Part shown: piece after piece, positions 1,252 through 28,900 of the stretch
How positions within the stretch are numbered: position 1 is the stretch's first letter
How the letters are laid out: every line of letters begins with the position of its first letter
NCBI GenBank assembly: GCA_903909415.1
Contig: CAIVVS010000033.1
Coordinates: 1-30,331 of the forward strand
Length of the DNA stretch: 30,331 bases
DNA from: an uncultured Pseudomonadota bacterium
GTDB lineage: Bacteria > Pseudomonadota > Gammaproteobacteria > Burkholderiales > SG8-39
Direction: 5' to 3'
Position numbers and translations under genes: made by a program
The notes under the pieces: generated by a model
Databases searched by the model: none
Told to the model about the DNA's origin: nothing
Seen by the model: the letters and a program-made list of their open reading frames with translations, nothing else

Positions 1252-1851
1252 TCAGACCCAGATCTGCAGCACGTACTCGAACGGCGCCTGCGCGTTGAAC
1301 AGGTCCGCGCGCTGCAGCAGGATGCGGAAGCCATCCTTGGTGCGCTTGAGCTGGTGCCGGTAGGTGCCGCCGAAGTGGCGCAGGTCGTCGCGGCGCAGCT
1401 CCATCATGTGGAAGCGCGAGCGCACGTGCACCTCGGTCGCGGTGACCTTCTCGATCACCACGTTGGACACCACGTGCGTGGTGCACCACTCGGCCTGCTG
1501 CGACCAGGCGTTGGGGTGCTGGATGCGCTTCATGCGCACCGTCATCAGGTCCACGTCCTCGACGAAGATCGAGGGCACGCCGTCCCAGTGGGTGTGCTCG
1601 GGCAGCAGCGGTGCCCAGTACACGCCCTTGGCGTCGAACAGGTTGATGTAGTCCTGCCACTGCTTGCCGTCCAGCAGCTCCGACTGCCGGTACAGGAACT
1701 GCTCGACGGCGCGGTGCAGGTCGGCGGCGGCCGCCTGCTTCACCGGCTTGGCGGCGGACTTCTTCACTGCGGCCCTCTTCGCGGGTGACTTCTTTGCCGC
1801 CACGGGCTTGCGGGCGGGCTTCTTTGCGGTCTTCTTGGTTGCCATGGTCAT
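1252..1851 (-). CDS. Aromatic-ring-hydroxylating dioxygenase beta subunit with H1-like basic N-terminal tail
   Basis: The protein has 199 residues. From about residue 44 it is a typical SnoaL/NTF2-like small subunit: an LHRAVEQFLYRQSELLD helix, then YINLFDAKGVYWAPL, a central TTHVVSNVVIE strand and a C-terminal LLQRADLFNAQAPF segment. Residues 1-38 are a low-complexity tail with twelve Lys and two Arg among Ala, Pro, Val, Ser and Thr (KKTAKKPARKP, AAKKSPAKRAAVKKSAAK), like the tails of bacterial histone-H1-like proteins such as AlgP and PhaF. The first ATG (1851) has AAGGA 4 bp upstream; a second ATG at 1845 is possible. Beta subunits give structure to the alpha3beta3 hexamer and hold no metal. 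It lies 57 bp after the alpha gene. The second beta subunit in this window (6435-6968) lacks such a tail. Confidence 0.92.
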   Translation of the reverse strand: MTMATKKTAKKPARKPVAAKKSPAKRAAVKKSAAKPVKQAAAADLHRAVEQFLYRQSELLDGKQWQDYINLFDAKGVYWAPLLPEHTHWDGVPSIFVEDVDLMTVRMKRIQHPNAWSQQAEWCTTHVVSNVVIEKVTATEVHVRSRFHMMELRRDDLRHFGGTYRHQLKRTKDGFRILLQRADLFNAQAPFEYVLQIWV

Positions 1852-1908
1852 TCAATCCTTGGTCTGGTGTGCGGCTCGGGTCTGCGTGGCTGGCGTCTCA
1901 GCCCGCGA

Positions 1909-3237
1909 TCACGACTTTGCCGTCATGAACTTGACCCACGCGCGGAACTGCGAGCGCATCGGCGCCTCGGAGCAGCCGTTGGTGGACTCGATCACCTTGC
2001 CATCGTCCTTGTCACGGCCATAGTCGCGGTGGAAGCTGACCCAGTCCCCGCCCTGGGAACTCAGGCCCTTCTGGCCGCGCTGCCAGTTTTCCAGGTCGTC
2101 GGCGTTGATCAGGGTGGCAGGCGAATTGACCAGGTTGAAGTACCAGAGCGCGCGGCGGTAGATCGCCTCGGGCGCGCCCACCAGCCGGAAGTGCCAGATC
2201 TCGGACAGCGTGCGGTCCGGGGCGATCGGGCGCAGCACGCGCAGCTGCTGCAGCGGCGACTGGATCGACACCGCCGGGTAGAGCAGCACGTGGTGGATGT
2301 TGCGCGACAGGTATTCGTCCATCTTGTCCTTGCCGTAGGCCTTGGTCAGCACCGCCTCGTGCGCCTTGGTGTCCGGGTCGGTGGGGCGCAGGCCCATGTA
2401 ACCGCTGAACACGATGTGGCCGTAGGGATAGCCGGTGTTGACCAGCGTGTCCCACTTCTCGAACGGCGTCGTGAACGCCGAGAGCATGTGGTAATGCAGC
2501 GGCTTCTCGCCCTTCTCGCGCAGGAGCTTGCGCTCCACCTCGGCGGCGGCATAGCCGGTGGACATGTGGGTGACCGAGGGGTGCACCGCGTCGATCTGGT
2601 TCTCCATGAAGAACTTCCAGTTGGAGCGCTGCACCACGCGGTTGGACGGGAACACCACCTCGACCTTGCCCACCGGCGAGCGGTCGCACATGTCGTCGAT
2701 GGCGATCTTGGCCGGTCCCATCCACTCCATCAGCGACGGGCCCTCGGCCAGGCGCGCGAACACGAAGCCGCGGTAGCTGTCGGTCGCGGCGGCCGGCTTC
2801 ATCTGGAACTGCGGGTCGTTCTTGTCGAACTTCGTGTCGCGGTAGCCGCGCTCCAGCGGCACCGACTCGAGCGAGCCGTCGTGGTGGAAGCGCCAGGCGT
2901 GGTACGGGCAGGTCATGGTCGGGCCGGCATTGCCGGCGCGCGAGCCGCACACCTGCACGCCGCGGTGCGGGCAGCGGTTGTACAGCACGCTGATCGGGCC
3001 TTCCGGGTCCGCCTTGGTCGGCTCGCCGCGCACCATCACCATCGGCTGGCGCCCGATCTGGAAGGTGGTGTAGTCGCCGGGCTTGGGGATCTGGGACTCG
3101 TGCCCGCAGTACTGCCAGGTCTTCTCGAAGATGTTCTTGATCTCGAGCTCGAAAATATCGGGGTCCGAGTAGCAGAGGCGGCTGACCCGGTCTTCCTCGA
3201 CCAGCTTGGCGAGGTTGGGGATGCGTTCATGCAGCAT
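1909..3237 (-). CDS. Aromatic-ring-hydroxylating dioxygenase alpha subunit (Rieske type)
   Basis: This 442-residue catalytic subunit has the Rieske [2Fe-2S] motif C89-x-H91 and C110-x2-H113. The mononuclear iron motif is D216-x2-H219-x4-H224, and the third iron ligand is an Asp in NADDLENW (380-381). The length is normal for two-component and three-component ring dioxygenases. The start at ATG 3237 is chosen because CAGGAGA lies 6-7 bp upstream and the protein then begins just before the first helix; the same frame stays open further upstream without homology. It is preceded by a marR gene and followed by its beta subunit, all on one strand, so it is probably MarR-controlled. The reaction would be O2- and electron-dependent cis-dihydroxylation of an aromatic acid or hydrocarbon; the substrate is not readable. 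No ferredoxin or reductase is adjacent. Confidence 0.95.
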   Translation of the reverse strand: MLHERIPNLAKLVEEDRVSRLCYSDPDIFELEIKNIFEKTWQYCGHESQIPKPGDYTTFQIGRQPMVMVRGEPTKADPEGPISVLYNRCPHRGVQVCGSRAGNAGPTMTCPYHAWRFHHDGSLESVPLERGYRDTKFDKNDPQFQMKPAAATDSYRGFVFARLAEGPSLMEWMGPAKIAIDDMCDRSPVGKVEVVFPSNRVVQRSNWKFFMENQIDAVHPSVTHMSTGYAAAEVERKLLREKGEKPLHYHMLSAFTTPFEKWDTLVNTGYPYGHIVFSGYMGLRPTDPDTKAHEAVLTKAYGKDKMDEYLSRNIHHVLLYPAVSIQSPLQQLRVLRPIAPDRTLSEIWHFRLVGAPEAIYRRALWYFNLVNSPATLINADDLENWQRGQKGLSSQGGDWVSFHRDYGRDKDDGKVIESTNGCSEAPMRSQFRAWVKFMTAKS

Positions 3238-3311
3238 GGCGGTCTCCTGGCGGGAGGGTTCGGTTGGAGGTGGAAAGGGCGTGTGGAAAGCGGGGTACGT
3301 TGCAGGACCGG

Positions 3312-3818
3312 TCAGGCCGCGTCGCCGGCAAGCTGCGCGGTGACCTGTCCCGCCGCGTCGAGGTTGGCCTTCATGCGCGCCAGCGTCCAGCGCAGCATGT
3401 CCGTGGCGCCGTCGGGCAAGCCTGCCTGCGCGGCGGCGTTGAGCCGGTCCACCGCGGGCCAGATGCGGCCGAACAGCTGCTCGCCCCTGGTGGTGAGCGA
3501 CAGGCGCGTCACGCGGGCGTCCTCGGCGTCGGACAGGCGCACCAGCAGGCCGGCGCGCTGCATGCGGTCCACGGTGCGCGACAGCGTGGTGCGGTCGATC
3601 GACGACAGGTCGGACAGCTCGCTCATGGAGCAGCGCTTGCGCCCGTAGATCGACGCCAGCGCGCGCCATTCCGGCGCGCGCATCCGGTAGGGCTTGAGCA
3701 CGGCGGCGAGCTGCGCGTCGCGCGCCGAGATCACCTGCGTCATCCAGAAGAACGGATGGCGGTCGAGGTCGAAGTCGGGTGCGTCTGCGGGCTGGCTGGC
3801 GTGGGCGGGGCGCGGCAT
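3312..3818 (-). CDS. MarR family transcriptional regulator
   Basis: The protein has 168 residues with the MarR winged helix-turn-helix. Helices at about 60-90 include SMSELSDLSSIDRTTLSRTVDRMQ, with the recognition helix near 72-88, and the wing DARVTRLSLTTRGEQL follows at about 100-115. Flanking helices would form the dimer interface. MarR proteins are usually repressors released by phenolic or aromatic ligands. The gene lies immediately upstream (74 bp) of the dioxygenase alpha gene in the same direction, the usual position for a local repressor that also regulates itself. A 16-bp perfect-arm palindrome (3863-3878), 45 bp upstream of the ATG, is a plausible operator. Ligand identity is unknown. 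Confidence 0.92.
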   Translation of the reverse strand: MPRPAHASQPADAPDFDLDRHPFFWMTQVISARDAQLAAVLKPYRMRAPEWRALASIYGRKRCSMSELSDLSSIDRTTLSRTVDRMQRAGLLVRLSDAEDARVTRLSLTTRGEQLFGRIWPAVDRLNAAAQAGLPDGATDMLRWTLARMKANLDAAGQVTAQLAGDAA

Positions 3819-4369: not shown

Positions 4370-4394
4370 CGCGGCCCGGCCGCCTGCGCGCTAC
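4366..4394. terminator. Bidirectional hairpin containing both convergent stop codons
   Basis: Perfect 8-bp arms (GTAGCGCG / CGCGCTAC) flank a 13-nt GC-rich loop. The left arm contains the TAG of the small plus-strand gene and the right arm contains the CTA (TAG) of the minus-strand Bug gene. It is well placed as a shared terminator, but neither side has a T-run. Confidence 0.45.
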
Positions 4395-5413
4395 TCCGCC
4401 TTGATGCCCGCGGCCTTCACCACCACCCTAAGCCGCTCGATGTCCTTCACGATCAGCGCCGCCATCTCCTGCGGTGAGCTGTTGCGCGGGATGATGCCCT
4501 CGTCGGTCATGCGCTTGATGATGTCGGGGGAGCGCCCGACGCGCACGAACTCCTCGTTCAGCTTCGCGACCACCGCATCGGGCGTGCCGGCGGGCGCGGC
4601 CAGGCCGATCCAGGTCTCGTACTCCACGCCCGGGTAGCCGGCCTCGGCCATGGTGGGAATCTGCGCGAACTGGGCCATGCGCGCGTTCGACGCCACGGCC
4701 AGCACCCGCATCTTGCCCTCCGCCACGTACTGCGCGACCGACGAGTACGACAGGAACAGCAGGTCCACGCGGCCGGCCGCGAGGTCCACCATCGCCGGCG
4801 CCGCGCCCTTGTAGGGCACGTGGACCAGCGGCGTGCCGATGCGCGCACCCAGCATCTCGCCCAGGAAATGCCCGCCGGTGGCCACGCCCGGGGTGGCGTA
4901 GCTGATGCCGCCGGGTTTCGTCTTGGCCAGCGCCGCGAGTTCGGCCACCGTCCTGGCCGGGCTGCTGCCGGGCACGATGAGGAAGTTCGGGTAGCTCCAC
5001 AGCAGCGTGATGGCGCGGAAGTCCTTCACCGGGTCGTAGGGCAGCTTGCTCATCAGCGCCACGTTGGCCGCGTGCGAGCTGATGGTCGCCTGCAACAGCG
5101 TATAGCCGTCGGGAAGCGCCTGCTTGACCGCCATGGTGCCGATCACGCCGCCGCCGCCGGGACGGTTGTCGATGCGTATGTTCTGGCCGAGGGCGTCCCC
5201 GACCCGGGCTGCCATCAGCCGCATCATGGTGTCGGCACTGGCACCGGGTGCGTAGAACACCACGATGTTGATGCCCTTCTGCGGCCAGGCCTGGCCGGCC
5301 GGCTGGGATTGGGCGCGGACGGCCGGGGAGGCGGCGGCGGCCAGCAGCGCCGCCGTGAACAGCGAGGCGGCGGCACGGCTGGCCGCGCGCCAGGAGCTAC
5401 GTCGGGAGGTCAT
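4391..5413 (-). CDS. Bug/TctC family periplasmic substrate-binding protein
   Basis: This 340-residue protein has an N-terminal Sec signal (basic SRRSSWRAASR, then an Ala/Leu core ending near AVRAQ). Typical Bug features follow in order: a first strand IVVFYAPGASADTM, DNRPGGGGVIG, a PDGYTLL turn and the HVPYKGAAPA motif, with a C-terminal lobe containing AAPAGTPDAVVAKLNEE. Bug proteins capture carboxylates or aromatic acids in the periplasm. ATG 5413 is preferred because AAGGAG lies 5 bp upstream; an in-frame ATG five codons earlier would bury that site. The gene is divergent from a GntR/FCD regulator with only 29 bp between the starts, so control by that regulator is likely (inference). No TctA/TctB membrane subunits are nearby. 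Confidence 0.93.
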   Translation of the reverse strand: MTSRRSSWRAASRAAASLFTAALLAAAASPAVRAQSQPAGQAWPQKGINIVVFYAPGASADTMMRLMAARVGDALGQNIRIDNRPGGGGVIGTMAVKQALPDGYTLLQATISSHAANVALMSKLPYDPVKDFRAITLLWSYPNFLIVPGSSPARTVAELAALAKTKPGGISYATPGVATGGHFLGEMLGARIGTPLVHVPYKGAAPAMVDLAAGRVDLLFLSYSSVAQYVAEGKMRVLAVASNARMAQFAQIPTMAEAGYPGVEYETWIGLAAPAGTPDAVVAKLNEEFVRVGRSPDIIKRMTDEGIIPRNSSPQEMAALIVKDIERLRVVVKAAGIKAE

Positions 5414-5442
5414 GCGCTCTCCTTGCATTGGATTGATCTAAG

Positions 5443-6434: not shown

Positions 6435-6968
6435 TCACAGCAGGAACGTGAGGTTGCCCAACCAGGAGTCGCGGTTGAGCAGCAGGATCTTCTTGCGCGC
6501 GATGCGCATCTGCCCGTCCACCGGACGGAGCTGGTGCTCCACGTCCGCGACGATCGCCTGCGGCACGCCCAGGCCCACCTGCTTGTGGTCGCCGGTGCGC
6601 ATCTCGTAGATGACCTGGCTGGAGCGCACCACCGCCACGCCGCCCTCGATGGTGACGCCCACGTTGGACACGAAGTGCAGGGTGCGCGAGCGCGGTGACT
6701 GGGCGGGAAAGGCGTTGTGCAGCAGGTGGTGCACCCGCTCCTCGCGGCGCAGCGGCGTGTCGTTCATGATGGACGCGCTGGTGGCGATCGGCTCGCGGTC
6801 GTCCAGCGGGATCCAGTAGTGGCCGTCGGCGGTGAACAGCGCGTTCCACTCCTCCAGCTTCAGGTCGTCCAGCAGGCGCGCCTCGTGGATCAGGAAATCC
6901 TCGGCCTGGGCGCGGGTGAATGCCAGCGCGTTGCGGTCCCCATTGCGGTCCCGGGTGGCGGTGCTCAT
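6435..6968 (-). CDS. Aromatic-ring-hydroxylating dioxygenase beta subunit
   Basis: This 177-residue small subunit of the SnoaL/NTF2-like fold has recognisable segments: AEDFLIHEARLLDDLKLEEW, LFTADGHYWIPLDD, HFVSNVGVTIEGG and a C-terminal RIARKKILLLNRDSW that is highly typical of the family. ATG 6968 is chosen because its A, T and G overlap the alpha-subunit stop (ATGA) and GGGAGAG lies about 6 bp upstream; the frame is open further upstream but only into the alpha gene. The overlap implies translational coupling and 1:1 production with the alpha subunit. It is the last gene of the minus-strand operon and is convergent with the GntR gene (17 bp). Confidence 0.93.
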   Translation of the reverse strand: MSTATRDRNGDRNALAFTRAQAEDFLIHEARLLDDLKLEEWNALFTADGHYWIPLDDREPIATSASIMNDTPLRREERVHHLLHNAFPAQSPRSRTLHFVSNVGVTIEGGVAVVRSSQVIYEMRTGDHKQVGLGVPQAIVADVEHQLRPVDGQMRIARKKILLLNRDSWLGNLTFLL

Positions 6969-12686: not shown

Positions 12687-13673
12687 TCAGTCCGGCTTGA
12701 TGTTGGCCTCTTTCACCACCCGGGCCCAGAGCGCGAGCTCGGCGCGGATCTGGCGCGAGGCTTCCTCGGGGGACGAGAAGGTGGCGAACACACCCTGTCC
12801 CAGAAGCTGCTCCTTGAGGTCGGCCGAGCCCATCACGCCGCGCAGCACCTCGTTCAGCTTCGCGATGACCGGCGCGGGCGTGCCGGCGGGGGCGAGGATG
12901 CCCAGCGTGGCGCTGACCTCGAAGCCCTTCATGCCGGATTCGGCCGAGGTCGGCACCGCGGGGATGGTCGCCATGCGCTGCGGCGCCAGCACCGCCAGAC
13001 CGCGCAGTTTGCCGGCCTGGATGTTGGGGCCGGTGGCGGCCACGTCGGTGATGATCATGTCCACCTGCCCGCCGACCAGGTCGGCCATGGCCGGGCCCAC
13101 GCCCTTGTAGGGCACGTGCAGCAGCTTGACGCCGGCGATGCGCTGGAACATCTCGCCCGCGAGGTGGGTGAGCGCGCCGTTGCCGCTGCTGGCCATGGTG
13201 ATGGCGCCGGGCTTGGACTTGGCCAGCGCCACCAGTTCGGCGAGGTTGTTCGCCTTGACGTTCGGGTTGACCGCGATCACCGAGGGGATGGACGCCACCA
13301 TGGCCACCGGCGCGAAGCCGCGGTCCAGGTCGAAGGCCGGCGCCTGTCCTGCGTTCTGCGCCTGCAGCGCGAGGAAGCTCGCGTGCACCGTGATCGCGCC
13401 CATCAGCAGCGTGTAGCCGTCGGGCGCGGCCTTGGAGGCGGCGACCGCGCCGATGGTGGCGGCCGCGCCGGCGCGGTTCTCCACCACCACCTGCTGGCCC
13501 AGCGGCCCGGACATGCGCGTGGCCATCACCCGGCCCATCAGGTCGGTGCCGCCGCCGGGCGGGAAGGGCACGATCAGGCGCACCGGCTTGCTCGGGTAGT
13601 CCTGCGCCTGCGCGGCACCGCAGAGCAGCGTGGTGCCGGCAATGAACGCGGCGACGATGGACAGCTTCCTCAT
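12687..13673 (-). CDS. Bug/TctC family periplasmic substrate-binding protein
   Basis: This 328-residue protein starts with the signal peptide MRKLSIVAAFIAGTTLLCGA, cleaved near AQAQ. Bug features are LIVPFPPGGGTDLMGR, VENRAGAAATIG, APDGYTLLMG, LHVPYKGVGPAMADL and ILAPAGTPAPVIAKLNE. GGGAG lies about 9 bp before ATG 13673. It follows the SDR gene by 48 bp and ends 45 bp before the second-copy operator/promoter element of the aldolase operon, so with the SDR it probably forms a two-gene unit driven from about 14530. The ligand is presumably a carboxylate or aromatic acid. Confidence 0.93.
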   Translation of the reverse strand: MRKLSIVAAFIAGTTLLCGAAQAQDYPSKPVRLIVPFPPGGGTDLMGRVMATRMSGPLGQQVVVENRAGAAATIGAVAASKAAPDGYTLLMGAITVHASFLALQAQNAGQAPAFDLDRGFAPVAMVASIPSVIAVNPNVKANNLAELVALAKSKPGAITMASSGNGALTHLAGEMFQRIAGVKLLHVPYKGVGPAMADLVGGQVDMIITDVAATGPNIQAGKLRGLAVLAPQRMATIPAVPTSAESGMKGFEVSATLGILAPAGTPAPVIAKLNEVLRGVMGSADLKEQLLGQGVFATFSSPEEASRQIRAELALWARVVKEANIKPD

Positions 13674-24006: not shown

Positions 24007-24984
24007 TCAGTCGAGCGAGATCTTGCCCTCGCGCACCACCTTCGCCCACTTGGCCTGCTCGGCGCGGATGAAGGCGGTGAACTCCTCGGGGGTGGAGGTG
24101 ATCGGCTCGAAGCCGACGTCGTCCATCTTCTGGCGGATCTGCGGGTCGGCCACGGACCTGGCGTACTCCGACCCGATCCGCGCCACGGCGTCGCGCGAGG
24201 TGCCCGCCGGGAAGGCGAAGCCCTGCCACGCGTAGTAGTTGTAGCCGGCCAGCCCGGTCTCGGCCACGGTCGGCACGTCGGACATGGTGCCCAGGCGCGC
24301 GGCGTTGCCCACCGCCAGCGCGCGCACCTTGCCGCCGCGCACCTGCGGGCCGCCGGTGCCCAGGTCGAGGAACATGGACTCGATGCGCCCGCCCAGCAGG
24401 TCCTGCACCGCCGGCGCCGCGCCTTTATAGGGCACGTGCGTCGCCTTCAGGCCGTGGCCCTGCAGGAAGGCCTCCATCGCCAGGTGGTGCGGCGAACCGG
24501 CACCGGGCGAGCCGTAGTTGAACTGGCCGGGCCGCGACTTGGCCGCCGCGACGAACTCGGCCACCGTCCTGATGCTCGACTGCGACGGCACGGTGAGCAT
24601 CAGCGCGGCGAGGATGGTGCGCGTGACCGGCTGGAAGTCGCGGATCGGGTCGTAGGGAATCTTGGAAAACAGGAACGGGTTCACCGCGAAGGTGGCGTTG
24701 TCGCCCACCAGCAGGGTGTAGCCATCGGGTGCCGACTTGGCGACCAGTTCGGCGCCGACGATGGTCGAGGCGCCCGGGCGGTTGTCCACCACCACCTGCT
24801 GGCCGAGGCCCTCGCCCATCTTGCCGGCCACCAGCCGCGCGAAGAAGTCGGTACCGCCGCCCGCCGGGTAGGGCACCACGAGCCGGATGGACTTGGCCGG
24901 ATAGGCCTGGGCCGATGCGGTCAGCGGAACGGACAACACGCCCGCGGCCACGCCCGCCAAAAGGATTGCCATTGCCTTGCGCAT
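24007..24984 (-). CDS. Bug/TctC family periplasmic substrate-binding protein inside the liv cluster
   Basis: This 325-residue protein has the signal peptide MRKAMAILLAGVAAGVLS, cleaved near ASAQA. Bug features are RLVVPYPAGGGTDFFAR, VDNRPGASTIVG, APDGYTLLVG, THVPYKGAAPAVQDLL and FAFPAGTSRDAVARI. GGAGGAGG lies 5 bp before ATG 24984, the strongest ribosome binding site in the region. It is inserted between the LivK-type receptor genes and livHMGF on the same strand. Bug proteins serve TctAB or act as sensors, and are not known partners of Liv permeases, so either the gene has moved into the cluster or the two uptake routes share a regulon. Confidence 0.93.
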   Translation of the reverse strand: MRKAMAILLAGVAAGVLSVPLTASAQAYPAKSIRLVVPYPAGGGTDFFARLVAGKMGEGLGQQVVVDNRPGASTIVGAELVAKSAPDGYTLLVGDNATFAVNPFLFSKIPYDPIRDFQPVTRTILAALMLTVPSQSSIRTVAEFVAAAKSRPGQFNYGSPGAGSPHHLAMEAFLQGHGLKATHVPYKGAAPAVQDLLGGRIESMFLDLGTGGPQVRGGKVRALAVGNAARLGTMSDVPTVAETGLAGYNYYAWQGFAFPAGTSRDAVARIGSEYARSVADPQIRQKMDDVGFEPITSTPEEFTAFIRAEQAKWAKVVREGKISLD

Positions 24985-25075: not shown

Positions 25076-26281
25076 TTACTTCAGCGGGCATTCCTTGGCA
25101 TACGGGTCCAGGTGCGCGGTGAAGATCGTGCCCATGGACTTGTTGGTGATGCGGCCCTGGGCGTCCTTGCCGATCACGCGCAGGTAGTAGTTCTGCACCG
25201 GGTAGCCGTTGTTGGCGATGCGGTACTCGCCGCGCGTGGACTTGAGCTTCACCGCCTTGAGCGCCTTCATGAAGGCCTCGCGGTCCTCGACCTTGCCCTT
25301 GACGGCCTTGGCCGCCGCGTCGATGTGCAGCGCGGTGTCGTAGCCCTGCGAGGCGTACAGCGACGGCTGGCGCTTGAACTCCTTCTCGAAGTCGGCGACG
25401 AAGCGCTTGTTCTCCGGGTTGTCCATGTCGGGCGACCACTGGCTGGTGTTGAAGATGCCCATCATCGACTCGCCGACGGCGGGGATCGTGTCCTGGTCGG
25501 CGGAGAAGCCCGGCAGGATCAGCGTGGTGCTGGTGGACAGGCCCGAGGCCACGAACTGCTTCACGAAGTTGATGCCCATGCCCCCGGGCATGAACACGTA
25601 CACGGCTTCGGGCTTGGCCGCGCGCATCTGCGCGAGCTCGGCGGCGAAGTCGAGCTGGCCGAGCTTGACGTACACCTCGTCGATCACCTTGCCCTTGTAG
25701 AAGCGCTTGAAGCCGGTGAGCGCATCCTTGCCCGCCGGGTAGTTGGGCGCCATGATGTAGGTGTTCTTGTAGCCCTTGGTCGTGGCGTGCTGGCCGGCGG
25801 CCTCGTGGTTGGCGTCGTTCTGCCATGCCGCCGACACGAACCACGGGCTGCAGCCCTTGCCCGCGAGCTGCGAGGGGCCGGCGTTGGCCGAGATGAAGGG
25901 CGTCTTGGACTCGAACGCGACCGGCGCGGCGGCCAGCAGGATGTTCGAGTAGATGATGCCGGTGACGATGTCGACGCGGTCGCGCTTCACGAAGCGGTCG
26001 GCGATCTGCTTGCCGGTGTCCGGGTTGAACTGGTCGTCCTGCGCCAGCACCTCGGCCGGCAGGCCGCCGAGCTTGCCGCCCAGGTGCTTGACCGCGAGGT
26101 TGAAGCCGTCGCGCACGTCGATGCCGGGGGCGCCCGCGGGGCCCGAGAGCGTGGTCACCAGGCCGACCTTGATCTTGTCGGCGGCCTGGGCGGACACGGC
26201 GGCGAGCGCCGCGGCCGTGGCCAGCGCGAGTAGCGATGCCGCACGGCCAGATGCGCGGCGGATGTTTCGGTTTGCAGCCAT
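25076..26281 (-). CDS. LivK-type ABC transporter substrate-binding protein (second of tandem pair)
   Basis: This 401-residue periplasmic type I binding protein has a signal peptide (RNIRRASGRAASLLALATAAALAAV, cleaved near AQA) and the Peripla_BP_6 fold: IKVGLVTTLSGPAG, VRDGFNLAVKHLGGKLGG, DDQFNPDTGKQIADRFV, ISANAGPSQLAG and APNYPAGKDAL. GGAGGA lies about 8 bp before ATG 26281. It is closely related to the upstream gene at 26355-27548 across its whole length, which points to tandem duplication. The pair would deliver ligands to LivHMGF. The ligand is uncertain; this branch often binds aromatic acids or amides rather than leucine. Confidence 0.94.
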   Translation of the reverse strand: MAANRNIRRASGRAASLLALATAAALAAVSAQAADKIKVGLVTTLSGPAGAPGIDVRDGFNLAVKHLGGKLGGLPAEVLAQDDQFNPDTGKQIADRFVKRDRVDIVTGIIYSNILLAAAPVAFESKTPFISANAGPSQLAGKGCSPWFVSAAWQNDANHEAAGQHATTKGYKNTYIMAPNYPAGKDALTGFKRFYKGKVIDEVYVKLGQLDFAAELAQMRAAKPEAVYVFMPGGMGINFVKQFVASGLSTSTTLILPGFSADQDTIPAVGESMMGIFNTSQWSPDMDNPENKRFVADFEKEFKRQPSLYASQGYDTALHIDAAAKAVKGKVEDREAFMKALKAVKLKSTRGEYRIANNGYPVQNYYLRVIGKDAQGRITNKSMGTIFTAHLDPYAKECPLK

Positions 26282-26354
26282 GGTTTTTCCTCCGGATGGG
26301 TGGGTGTTCTTCAATGCTCGTCCCGCTCGCGCGTAGCTTACCCGTGCGCGGCGC

Positions 26355-27548
26355 TTACCACTTGAGCGGGCATTTCGCGGCGTGCGTGTCGCCAAGGTCC
26401 CTGGCCACAACGCCGACCGTCTTGTTGGTGATGCGTCCCTTCGTGTCGCGGCCGATCACCCTGAGGTACCAGTCCTGCGACGGGAAGTTGTTGTTCTGCC
26501 ACTTGAACTCGCCGCGCACCGACTTGAAGCGCTTGGCGCGCAGGGCCTTGATCACGGCCTCGCGGTCCTCGACCTTGCCTTTCACGTCGCGCACCGCGGC
26601 GTCGATCAGCATGGCCGTGTCCCAGCCCTGCGAGGCGTACACCGTCGGCAGGCGGTTGAACTCCTTCTCGAACGCGGCCACGAAGCGCCGGTTCTCCGGG
26701 TTGTCGAAGTCGTGCGCGTAGTGCGCCACGTTGAACACGCCCAGCATCGGCTCGCCCACCGCCTTGATGATGTCCTCGTCGGCGCCCACGCCGGCGGTCA
26801 GCAGCAGCGTGTCCTTGGACAGGCCGGCGGCGACGAACTGCTTGATGAAGTTGATGCCCATGCCGCCCGGCAGGAAGTAGAACACCGCCTCGGGCTTGGC
26901 CGCGCGGATCTGCGCTAGCTCCGCCGCGTAGTCGAGCTGTCCGAGCTTGATGAAGATCTCGTCGGACAGCTTGCCCTTGTAGAAATTCTTGAAGCCGGCG
27001 ATGGCGTCGCGCCCGGCCGGGTAGTTCGGGGCGATGGCCACGATGTTCTTGTAGCCGCGCTGGGTGGCGAGGATCCCCGGACCGCCGTTGTTGGTGTCGT
27101 TCTGCCAGGAGGCCGAGAAGAAGTAGCGGTTGCACTGCTCGCCCGCGAGCTGCGAGGGGCCGGCGTTGGCGCTGATCATCAGGGTCTTGGACTCGAACGC
27201 CACGGGCGCGGCCGCCAGCAGCACGTTGGAGAACACGATGCCTGTGAGGAAGTCGACCTTGTTCTGGCGCACCAGGCGGTCGGCCAGCTGCTTGCCGGTG
27301 TCCGGGTTGAGCTGGTCGTCCAGCACCGTGACTTCCGCCGGCAGGCCGCCGAGCTTGCCGCCGTTCATCTTGACCGCGAGGTTGAAGGCGTCGCGGATGT
27401 CGATGCCCAGCGCGGCGTTCGGGCCGGACAGCGTGGAGATGAAGCCGACCTTGACGCGGTCGGCGGCGAGCACCGAGTGGGAGGCGAGGGTGCCGGCCAG
27501 CGCCAGCGTGGCGGCAGTGGCGAGTGCGGTGAGGCGAAGGCTTTTCAT
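26355..27548 (-). CDS. LivK-type ABC transporter substrate-binding protein (first of tandem pair)
   Basis: This 397-residue periplasmic binding protein has a signal peptide (SLRLTALATAATLALAGTLA, cleaved near VLA) and the same order of motifs as its neighbour: VKVGFISTLSGPNA, DDQLNPDTGKQLADRLV, ISANAGPSQLAG, APNYPAGRDAI and FLPGGMGINFIKQFV. ATG 27548 is preferred: it gives a proper signal peptide and lies 27 bp below a TATAAA box. An ATG 11 codons upstream would overlap that box. The ribosome binding site is weak. It heads the minus-strand transport cluster and is divergent from the VanA-like oxygenase gene. Confidence 0.94.
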   Translation of the reverse strand: MKSLRLTALATAATLALAGTLASHSVLAADRVKVGFISTLSGPNAALGIDIRDAFNLAVKMNGGKLGGLPAEVTVLDDQLNPDTGKQLADRLVRQNKVDFLTGIVFSNVLLAAAPVAFESKTLMISANAGPSQLAGEQCNRYFFSASWQNDTNNGGPGILATQRGYKNIVAIAPNYPAGRDAIAGFKNFYKGKLSDEIFIKLGQLDYAAELAQIRAAKPEAVFYFLPGGMGINFIKQFVAAGLSKDTLLLTAGVGADEDIIKAVGEPMLGVFNVAHYAHDFDNPENRRFVAAFEKEFNRLPTVYASQGWDTAMLIDAAVRDVKGKVEDREAVIKALRAKRFKSVRGEFKWQNNNFPSQDWYLRVIGRDTKGRITNKTVGVVARDLGDTHAAKCPLKW

Positions 27549-27610: not shown

Positions 27611-27826
27611 CATTTCGTCCCCCTGGTTTCGTCCATGCGTCGCATTGTTTCCGGCGATGGCATGCAGGGGAAAAATGCCCTATCGTGCGCGCATGCGTTG
27701 CGCCCGGAGGACTCCGGCCGACGCCGGCCCACGCCGGCCGAAGCCCGCAGAGGCCCGCGGCCATCCGGGAGGCCACCAAGGTTGGCGGCCCCGGACTTTT
27801 TCCGGAACCACGAGGAGGAACATCCC
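27588..27826. other. Divergent intergenic region upstream of the VanA-like gene
   Basis: This non-coding stretch lies between the livK promoter box and the oxygenase ATG. It holds GGCAT...ATGCC (27659-27679), an 8-bp palindrome CGCATGCG (27690-27697), and short GC-rich direct repeats of the type CGCCGGCC near 27725-27745. No convincing plus-strand promoter was found. A small regulator gene is not present. Confidence 0.5.
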
Positions 27827-28900
27827 ATGTTCATGCGCAATTGCTGGTACGTCGGCGCCTGGGACCACGAGGTCACGTCCGACCGCCCCTTCGGCCGCAT
27901 CCTGCTGGACGAGCCGGTGGTGTTCTACCGCCGGCGCGATGGCGCGGTGGTCGCGCTGGAGGACCGCTGCTGCCACCGCCGCTACCCGCTGTCGCGCGGC
28001 TGCGTGGTCGAGGACAAGCTGGAGTGCGCCTACCACGGCCTGCAGTTCGAGGGCAGCGGCAAGTGCGTGCGCGTGCCCGGCCAGGCCATCATTCCCGAGT
28101 CGGCCAAGGTGCGCAGCTACCCGGTGGTGGAGCGCAACCACTGGGTGTGGATCTGGATGGGCGACCCGGCGCTGGCCGACCCGTCGCTGGTCACCGACTT
28201 CCACTGGATGGACGACCCGGCCTGGCGCGCCAAGGGCACGGTGTTCCACGTCAAGAGCAGCTACGAGCTGGTGATCGAGAACCTGATGGACCTCACGCAC
28301 CTGTCCTTCGTGCACAAGTCCACCATCGGCAACTACGCCACCGCCGAGGCGGCGGAGACCAGGACCCTGCGCACCGAGGACGACGTGACCGTGGTGCGCT
28401 GGATGGTGGACACCCCGCCGCCGCCCACCTACGTGCGCGCCGGCGGCTTCAAGGGCAACGTGGATCGCTGGCAGCTGATCAACTTCACCCTGCCGTGCTT
28501 CGTGCGCCTGGACGTGGGCGCGATGGACACCGGCAAGGGGGCGCCGCAGATCAAGACCGCCGCCTTCGCCGGCGAGGGCAGGATGGCCGGCGGCATCGAG
28601 ATGCGCAACCTGAACGCGATCACGCCCGAGTCGGAAAAGACCTGCCATTACTTCTGGGCGCAGGCGCACAACTTCCTGCTCGACAAGCCGGAAGTCACCA
28701 ACCTGCTCTACGAGCAGGTGAAGGAAGCCTTCCTGCAGGACTGGGAGATCTTCGAGAACCAGCAGAAGTGGATCGACCTCGACCCGGATGCGCCGCGCGT
28801 GGACCTGAACGGCGACAACGGCCAGATCCAGGCGATCCGCCTGCTGCGCCGGCGCATCGCCGAGGAACAAGCCGGCTCGCCCGCGCTGCGCGTGGCCTGA
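27827..28900 (+). CDS. VanA-like Rieske oxygenase, alpha subunit
   Basis: This 357-residue protein has Rieske ligands C48-x-H50 (DRCCHRRYPL) and C67-x2-H70 (CAYHGLQF), and catalytic iron site D155-x2-H158-x4-H163 within NLMDLTHLSFVH. The rest resembles the VanA C-terminal domain. The size and N-terminus (FMRNCWYVGAWDHEV) match vanillate O-demethylase and related homomeric oxygenases (dicamba, phthalate or toluenesulfonate types), which need no beta subunit but do need a VanB-like reductase. No such reductase is in the window. ATG 27827 has GAGGAGG 8 bp upstream. An alpha/beta hydrolase gene follows after 109 bp. It is likely to be O-demethylation or monooxygenation of an aromatic acid; the exact substrate is unknown. 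Confidence 0.95.
   Translation: MFMRNCWYVGAWDHEVTSDRPFGRILLDEPVVFYRRRDGAVVALEDRCCHRRYPLSRGCVVEDKLECAYHGLQFEGSGKCVRVPGQAIIPESAKVRSYPVVERNHWVWIWMGDPALADPSLVTDFHWMDDPAWRAKGTVFHVKSSYELVIENLMDLTHLSFVHKSTIGNYATAEAAETRTLRTEDDVTVVRWMVDTPPPPTYVRAGGFKGNVDRWQLINFTLPCFVRLDVGAMDTGKGAPQIKTAAFAGEGRMAGGIEMRNLNAITPESEKTCHYFWAQAHNFLLDKPEVTNLLYEQVKEAFLQDWEIFENQQKWIDLDPDAPRVDLNGDNGQIQAIRLLRRRIAEEQAGSPALRVA

Follow-up and report, generated by a model that had tools for sequence, protein, structure and literature searches.

A lysine- and alanine-rich N-terminal arm on the beta subunits of a clade of ring-hydroxylating oxygenases

Is a histone H1-like tail at the N-terminus of a ring-hydroxylating oxygenase beta subunit real, and what could it do there? 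Oxygenase beta subunits are usually regarded as structural. An earlier note on the DNA studied here, a 30,331-nucleotide stretch from an uncultured Pseudomonadota bacterium (hereafter, the window), described such a tail and knew of no dioxygenase small subunit reported to have one. In this study, we analyzed the gene, its neighbors, and its relatives (Table 1). The lysine-rich tail on the window beta subunit is real, and it is probably useful, since many of its closest relatives carry such a tail. Targeted searches of open-licence literature, which leaves out most subscription journals, listed no description of a Rieske oxygenase beta subunit with a Lys-rich tail or of a dioxygenase resembling H1. 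Both the protein family and this type of tail are known, and what appears to be new is their combination throughout a clade.

The open frame matched PF00866 over residues 56–187 (E 1.2e-23, 84.2 bits against a curated cut-off of 27), and the profile search also returned SnoaL_4. Its model has an NTF2/SnoaL-like fold, with beta chains of ring-hydroxylating oxygenases as the top Foldseek matches, and an alpha subunit gene with Rieske and catalytic domains lies beside it, as befits a member of this beta family. The nearest fold is the short chain of IadD/E (8h2t); IadD/E (8h2t, 7yls) is the best structural match, with TM 0.67/0.84 and 29% identity, and the nearest solved relative of the beta subunit. 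It is also one of the two nearest for the alpha subunit, whose closest solved relatives are 9o71 and IadD (7yls/8h2t). The IadE chain in the PDB has 162 residues and no arm, and the match to the window beta subunit begins at IadE residue 12. Binding proteins of ABC transporters are reported to be encoded in the iad operon as well (PMC10374108). The enzyme containing the window beta subunit probably breaks down aromatic compounds.

Relatives of the MarR regulator upstream of the alpha gene were found by tblastn at 12 of 77 clade loci. The window also encodes a third Rieske oxygenase of the vanillate demethylase type (VanA_C, Rieske; 27635–28900, + strand) and three TctC-family periplasmic receptors (4391–5428, 12687–13673, and 24007–24984, all on the − strand). 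One of these receptors sits among Liv-type ABC genes at approximately 20.4–27.8 kb, which we take to be LivF/G/M/H, as does a Peripla_BP_6 protein (25076–26410). In a parallel to the iad operon, relatives of the Liv-type transporter genes are present at 40 of the 77 clade loci; contig ends truncate many of these 77.

Table 1 Features of the beta subunit locus in the window.
Feature	Positions	Strand	Basis
Ring-hydroxylating oxygenase beta subunit, 199 aa, with N-terminal K/A arm	1252..1851	-	Open frame, PF00866, SnoaL_4, fold
N-terminal K/A arm spanning residues 1-44, its basic part within 1-38; no structure predicted	1720..1851	-	Composition, AlphaFold
Second ATG, likelier start	1843..1845	-	P0002-P0004 begin MATKK; MATK/MAAK starts in relatives
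First in-frame ATG, 4 nt after AAGGA	1849..1851	-	Sequence
AAGGA, ribosome-binding-site-like	1856..1860	-	Sequence
Alpha subunit paired with this beta (Rieske plus catalytic domain), 442 aa counted from the alpha ATG	1909..3237	-	PF00355 and PF00848 (frame scanned 1909-3246)
MarR-family regulator, upstream of alpha	3312..3818	-	PF12802/PF01047
Paralogous beta subunit without tail (comparison)	6435..6968	-	PF00866; N-terminus MSTATRDRNGDRNALAF

Residues 1–44 of the beta subunit (MTMATKKTAKKPARKPVAAKKSPAKRAAVKKSAAKPVKQAAAAD) contain 12 Lys, 2 Arg, and 14 Ala, with a single acidic residue. The earlier note had counted 12 Lys and 2 Arg within residues 1–38 of an open frame and had described the paralogue as tailless; the count is exact, and the N-terminus of the paralogue indeed lacks the tail. 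It had further judged the tail genuine from the continuous frame and the good ribosome-binding site of the tail's ATG, which holds with one amendment. The AAGGA (1860–1856) stands 4 nt from the ATG at 1851 and 10 nt from that at 1845, and a TGA immediately precedes the ATG at 1851. The tail is very probably translated. The ATG at 1845 is, however, the likelier start, because the near-identical proteins P0002–P0004 begin with MATKK and relatives often start with MATK or MAAK (25 and 16 of the 125 proteins with a Lys/Ala-rich (K/A) arm, 41 together).

A wrong start codon, with translation beginning further downstream, is unlikely, because in 24 of 25 tailed loci the picked start sits close to the alpha stop. 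The picker searched only downstream of this stop and favored ATG, a Shine–Dalgarno-like sequence, and, to a small degree, upstream starts, so that the distances describe geometry and are not proof: −8 to +16 nt in these 24 loci, with L009 (75 nt) as the exception, and −8 to +22 nt in 18 short relatives. Were translation to begin at the core, 59 to 367 nt would separate the alpha and beta genes. Three further K/A loci (L050, L054, and L061) stand outside the 25; the picker took an internal start in them, although each has an ATG further upstream, at −1 nt relative to the alpha stop. In the window, the alpha stop ends at 1909, upstream of beta, and the gap of 57 nt exceeds that of most relatives.

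The composition of the tail was compared with 500 nucleotide shuffles of the same DNA. The Lys fraction of the window tail is 0.28, whereas the shuffles average 0.045 and never exceed 0.19. In 28 of 29 K/A tails (a classifier-dependent count that includes L011, elsewhere classed as K/A plus module), the Lys fraction lies above the 99th percentile of shuffles of the tail's own DNA; net charge per residue does so in only six. Chance composition is thus rejected for lysine and not for net charge, which is less special because shuffled GC-rich DNA yields Arg. The special feature of the arm is lysine, not charge alone. At the three codon positions of the window beta gene, the tail has a GC content of 0.55/0.57/0.89 and the core one of 0.65/0.35/0.98.

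A search for relatives showed that the tail is common in this beta clade. When the best 120 of 2644 proteins matched by the full-length query were classified together with the window protein, 113 of 121 carried a K/A arm. Tail words could bias such a search, and a core-only query was therefore used as a control: among its best 120 of 2880 matched proteins, 85 have a K/A arm, 33 are short, one has another N-terminus, and one has the letters of the module described below. K/A arms, alone or before the module, are found in 218 of the 280 proteins collected, window included, two of the three search queries containing the arm. P0025 (MATKKTTRTAARPAADGAE) was classed as short. The earlier note had named as a refutation that close homologues might all start after the tail; some close homologues are short, but many are not. 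The survey of such extensions that it proposed indicates an arm conserved in kind. Among 75 tree rows (73 genome loci, the window, and the paralogue), 28 are K/A, 24 have the module, 19 are short, and four have both K/A and module; the loci had been found with six peptide patterns, one of them taken from the tail, and L070, L072, L076, and L077 were omitted because upstream sequence was absent, Ns were present, or the frame was broken. Judged by their record titles, betaproteobacteria and alphaproteobacteria (Reyranella, Rhodospirillales) are among the K/A rows.

Arm presence changes 24 times on a FastTree phylogeny of 292 rows, 12 of which are outgroup rows chosen among short ones and tailless by that choice, suggesting that gains or losses of the arm are frequent. 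P0006 has a core 85% identical to that of the window protein and is a tailless protein of 160 residues, through either real loss or a mis-called start. Since L002 (core 80% identical) and 33 of the 120 core-only relatives, P0006 among them, have short N-termini, the arm appears dispensable in places. We found no K/A arm on 71 distinct further beta subunits in 20 genomes of clade members, where 90 of 99 PF00866 matches were examined, and no K/A-like stretch upstream in frame of these 71; one of them, L126, is the clade member L024 again, with the module. A strict Lys/Ala detector found an N-terminal case in one of 560 neighboring ORFs, which are open frames and partly spurious, vs 18 of 75 clade N-termini. 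Looser settings gave 2–6 of 560 vs 22–26 of 75, and very strict settings 0 of 522 neighbors and 7 of 66 beta ORFs. A control based on K+R was swamped by Arg-rich spurious frames (53–195 of 561, depending on the setting) and was replaced by the Lys-based one.

Two further arrangements were observed. In L001 and L003, a single contig holds two clade beta genes in tandem, and the K/A arms of the two copies differ. In a third N-terminal variant (P0014, P0024, P0047, L004, and L005), a K/A start is followed by a similar S-x-x-E-x-x-M-K-K segment (SVIELVMKK or STFERAMKK).

The 125 K/A arms have a median length of 43 residues (18–90), carry a net charge between 4 and 28, and consist of 28.5% Ala, 22.4% Lys, 8.4% Pro, and 7.1% Arg. 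Aromatic residues and cysteine are scarce (14 F/W/Y/C in 5727 residues), and D/E are rare, with 94 of the 137 acidic residues in the last five positions before the core. The autocorrelation of K/R peaks at lags 5, 10, and 15 (z = 15.8, 12.0, and 6.5, from shuffles that take no account of relatedness between arms). Five residues is the average period: lag 5 is the best of lags 3–7 in 61 of the 125 arms, and its value in the window arm is 0.36. Among the 93 arms that precede the module, lag 6 is best in 33 and lag 5 in 31 (lag-5 z = 6.7). Recent slippage of 15-nt repeats does not explain the period, because the same codon recurs at lag 5 in 55 of 131 cases vs 515 of 1367 at other lags (p = 0.35); TRF found only 1.9 copies of a 12-mer. 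The tails change amino acids faster than the cores in the nine close pairs compared. In the most extreme pair, L014/L017, non-synonymous differences affect 11 of 30 aligned tail codons and one of 153 core codons. The sequence of the arm turns over fast while its composition stays.

In the AlphaFold model, residues 1–36 of the window beta subunit have no secondary structure, and the mean pLDDT per ten residues is 54–61, low but not below 50. The first helix spans residues 37–61, and the arm joins it directly. The net charges of the window alpha and of the beta core are +1 and 0, and each arm adds +13. No charge compensation between tail and alpha was seen in 25 K/A loci (rho = −0.21, p = 0.31), and neither the net charge of alpha nor that of the beta core differs between the K/A and short groups (p = 0.30 and 0.84).

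The earlier note likened the tail to those of H1-type proteins. The likeness stands in composition and in the K/R spacing of about five residues, and fails at the level of Pfam HC2 (PF07382), which the window arm matched with E 2.6 and 8.5 bits against a cut-off of 40. None of the ten proteins tested, window included, reached 40; the best was a longer-armed relative (E 3.6e-9, 37.5 bits), and no match at all was obtained for three proteins that have both arm and module. Precomputed domains place PF07382 on 13 of the best 120 of 2644 relatives from the full-length search. The window tail reaches no Pfam cut-off, and annotation by sequence profiles passes over it.

Among the closest counterparts are the AKKA/PAKKA tails of HupB, HbhA, and PhaM. 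Like these, the window arm is rich in Lys, Ala, and Pro, poor in acidic residues, and unstructured in its model, and paired lysines at about five-residue spacing, which the PAKKA pentad would produce, recur across the 125 arms. The known tails are C-terminal and belong to proteins of the nucleoid or of granules, for which binding to DNA or to the nucleoid has been reported, whereas the window arm is N-terminal and sits, as a putative binding element, on a putative catabolic enzyme. The AKKA repeats of HbhA are reported to be needed for DNA binding, HbhA and HupB having AKKA/PAKKA tails (PMC10665949), and the PAKKA lysines of PhaM to attach granules to the nucleoid (PMC9049629). The KPAA-repeat domains of AlgP and PhaF are likewise Lys/Ala/Pro-rich disordered polycations likened to histone H1, and that of AlgP is described as binding DNA and spacing polyphosphate granules (PMC9239181). 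They have a regular four-residue repeat, in contrast to the looser, roughly five-residue pattern of the clade, and the repeat region of AlgP is reported as 154 residues long, against the median of 43 for the clade arms.

We tentatively propose that the arm is a genuine, selected, disordered cationic arm that tethers the oxygenase to a polyanion, either the nucleoid or polyphosphate, a reading that we hold as plausible though short of probable. The N-terminal arm of the beta subunit would be cationic and intrinsically disordered in the cell. If the complex is alpha3beta3 like its relatives, three arms would shift it from near neutrality (a computed +3) to a formal charge of about +42. They may then tether the enzyme through non-specific electrostatics to a cellular polyanion, for which the nucleoid would be the simplest candidate and polyphosphate an alternative, and tethering would concentrate or position the enzyme. 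The K/R spacing of about five residues, as in the DNA-binding AKKA/PAKKA tails, supports this reading. So do the many arms among the core-only relatives, their absence from the 71 further beta subunits, the scarcity of D/E, and the published tails of HbhA, PhaM, and AlgP. The computed support consists of an operon geometry that favors translation of the tail, a composition kept despite fast turnover, the absence of predicted structure, the periodicity, and the charge. Counted against it are the short close relatives, a period that is only a mean, the unexceptional net charge, pLDDT values not below 50, an arm shorter than the AlgP region, and the presence of a different module in the sister clade.

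Relative to the K/A arm, the sister clade adds or substitutes a conserved, near-neutral TGAQ-x-I-x-PDHSPR module. It sits between the start and the core (consensus xIPxAGPDFEHLLxQDVVIEAx...TGAQAIEPDHSPRA), and its VVI..TGAQ-x-I-x-PDHSPRA stretch is found at L041:5800-6012, L010:5770-6042, and other sister loci. A query with the L010 beta subunit, which itself has arm and module, gave 120 relatives among the matches listed: 118 contain GAQ, 105 HSPR, and all 120 one or the other, and 93 have a K/A arm preceding the module. G-A-Q, P, and HSPR are invariant in 16 chosen alignment rows; among exceptions, L029 reads HLPR and L021 lacks the second half. In 14 genomes, 11 module matches fell in the clade beta gene (ten below 1e-8 and one partial at 8.3e-4), and the next best outside it, among candidates limited to 150 in several genomes, was 0.015. 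The P0164 model, in which the pLDDT of the module is about 50, gave no sign that the module folds or docks on the beta monomer. The module is possibly more specific in function than the K/A arm.

The main rival explanation, which we consider unlikely, is that the arm is an electrostatic lure for an acidic electron donor, a ferredoxin or a reductase, docking at the alpha/beta boundary of the stem. In cumene dioxygenase, the Rieske ferredoxin is reported to engage alpha K117 and beta R65 when docking at that boundary, and the docking face of Rieske ferredoxins to be acidic (PMC9361823). The R65 loop is missing from the window beta subunit in our alignment, in which the residue number was counted by hand, and a substitute basic element is therefore conceivable on an alpha3beta3 core that is near neutral. 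However, the same study found no conservation of the docking residues in enzymes with donors other than a Rieske ferredoxin, and IadD/E, the nearest structural relative, whose IadE chain is armless, uses the FMN reductase IadC as its donor (PMC10374108). K/R recurring periodically over up to 90 residues also seems more than a docking patch needs. It is unlikely, too, that the arm belongs to a partner-specific docking platform, an N-terminus holding exchangeable short elements such as the K/A arm, the TGAQ module, and the SVIEL-type segments. The constancy of the module letters in the listed relatives of the L010 beta subunit, with an arm before them in most, the invariant positions in the chosen rows, the fall of its good matches in the clade beta gene in the 14 genomes, and its lack of a confident place on the modeled beta monomer all fit such a platform. 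A specific docking motif would be conserved in sequence, which the K/A arm is not, and the exceptions in L029 and L021 indicate that even the module is not untouchable.

The fast divergence of the tails and the frequent gain or loss of the arm would suit a tolerated low-complexity extension without function, kept by mutation bias and repeat slippage. This is quite unlikely, given lysine far above shuffled DNA in nearly all tails, few acidic and scarce aromatic residues, absence of the arm from the 71 further beta subunits, and codons without a signature of recent 15-nt repeats. It is very improbable that the arm just helps alpha3beta3 to assemble, stay soluble, or fold, with no other binding partner. 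The direct junction of the arm with the first helix is compatible with such a role, but tail-less relatives and other beta subunits manage without an arm, and alpha shows no sign of compensating its charge.

Returning to the polyanion-binding arm, a bolder form of the proposal, possible but rather doubtful, is that three H1-like arms per complex hold the oxygenases of this clade on the nucleoid or polyphosphate and that the N-terminus is a swappable address label, because the sister clade uses the TGAQ-x-I-x-PDHSPR module either in place of the K/A arm or alongside it. If this is true, the N-termini of beta subunits, with a fast-evolving arm and a second linear module, would direct the enzyme to a site within the cell or bring in partners, and the placing of aromatic catabolism in bacteria would become directly testable by deletion of the tail.
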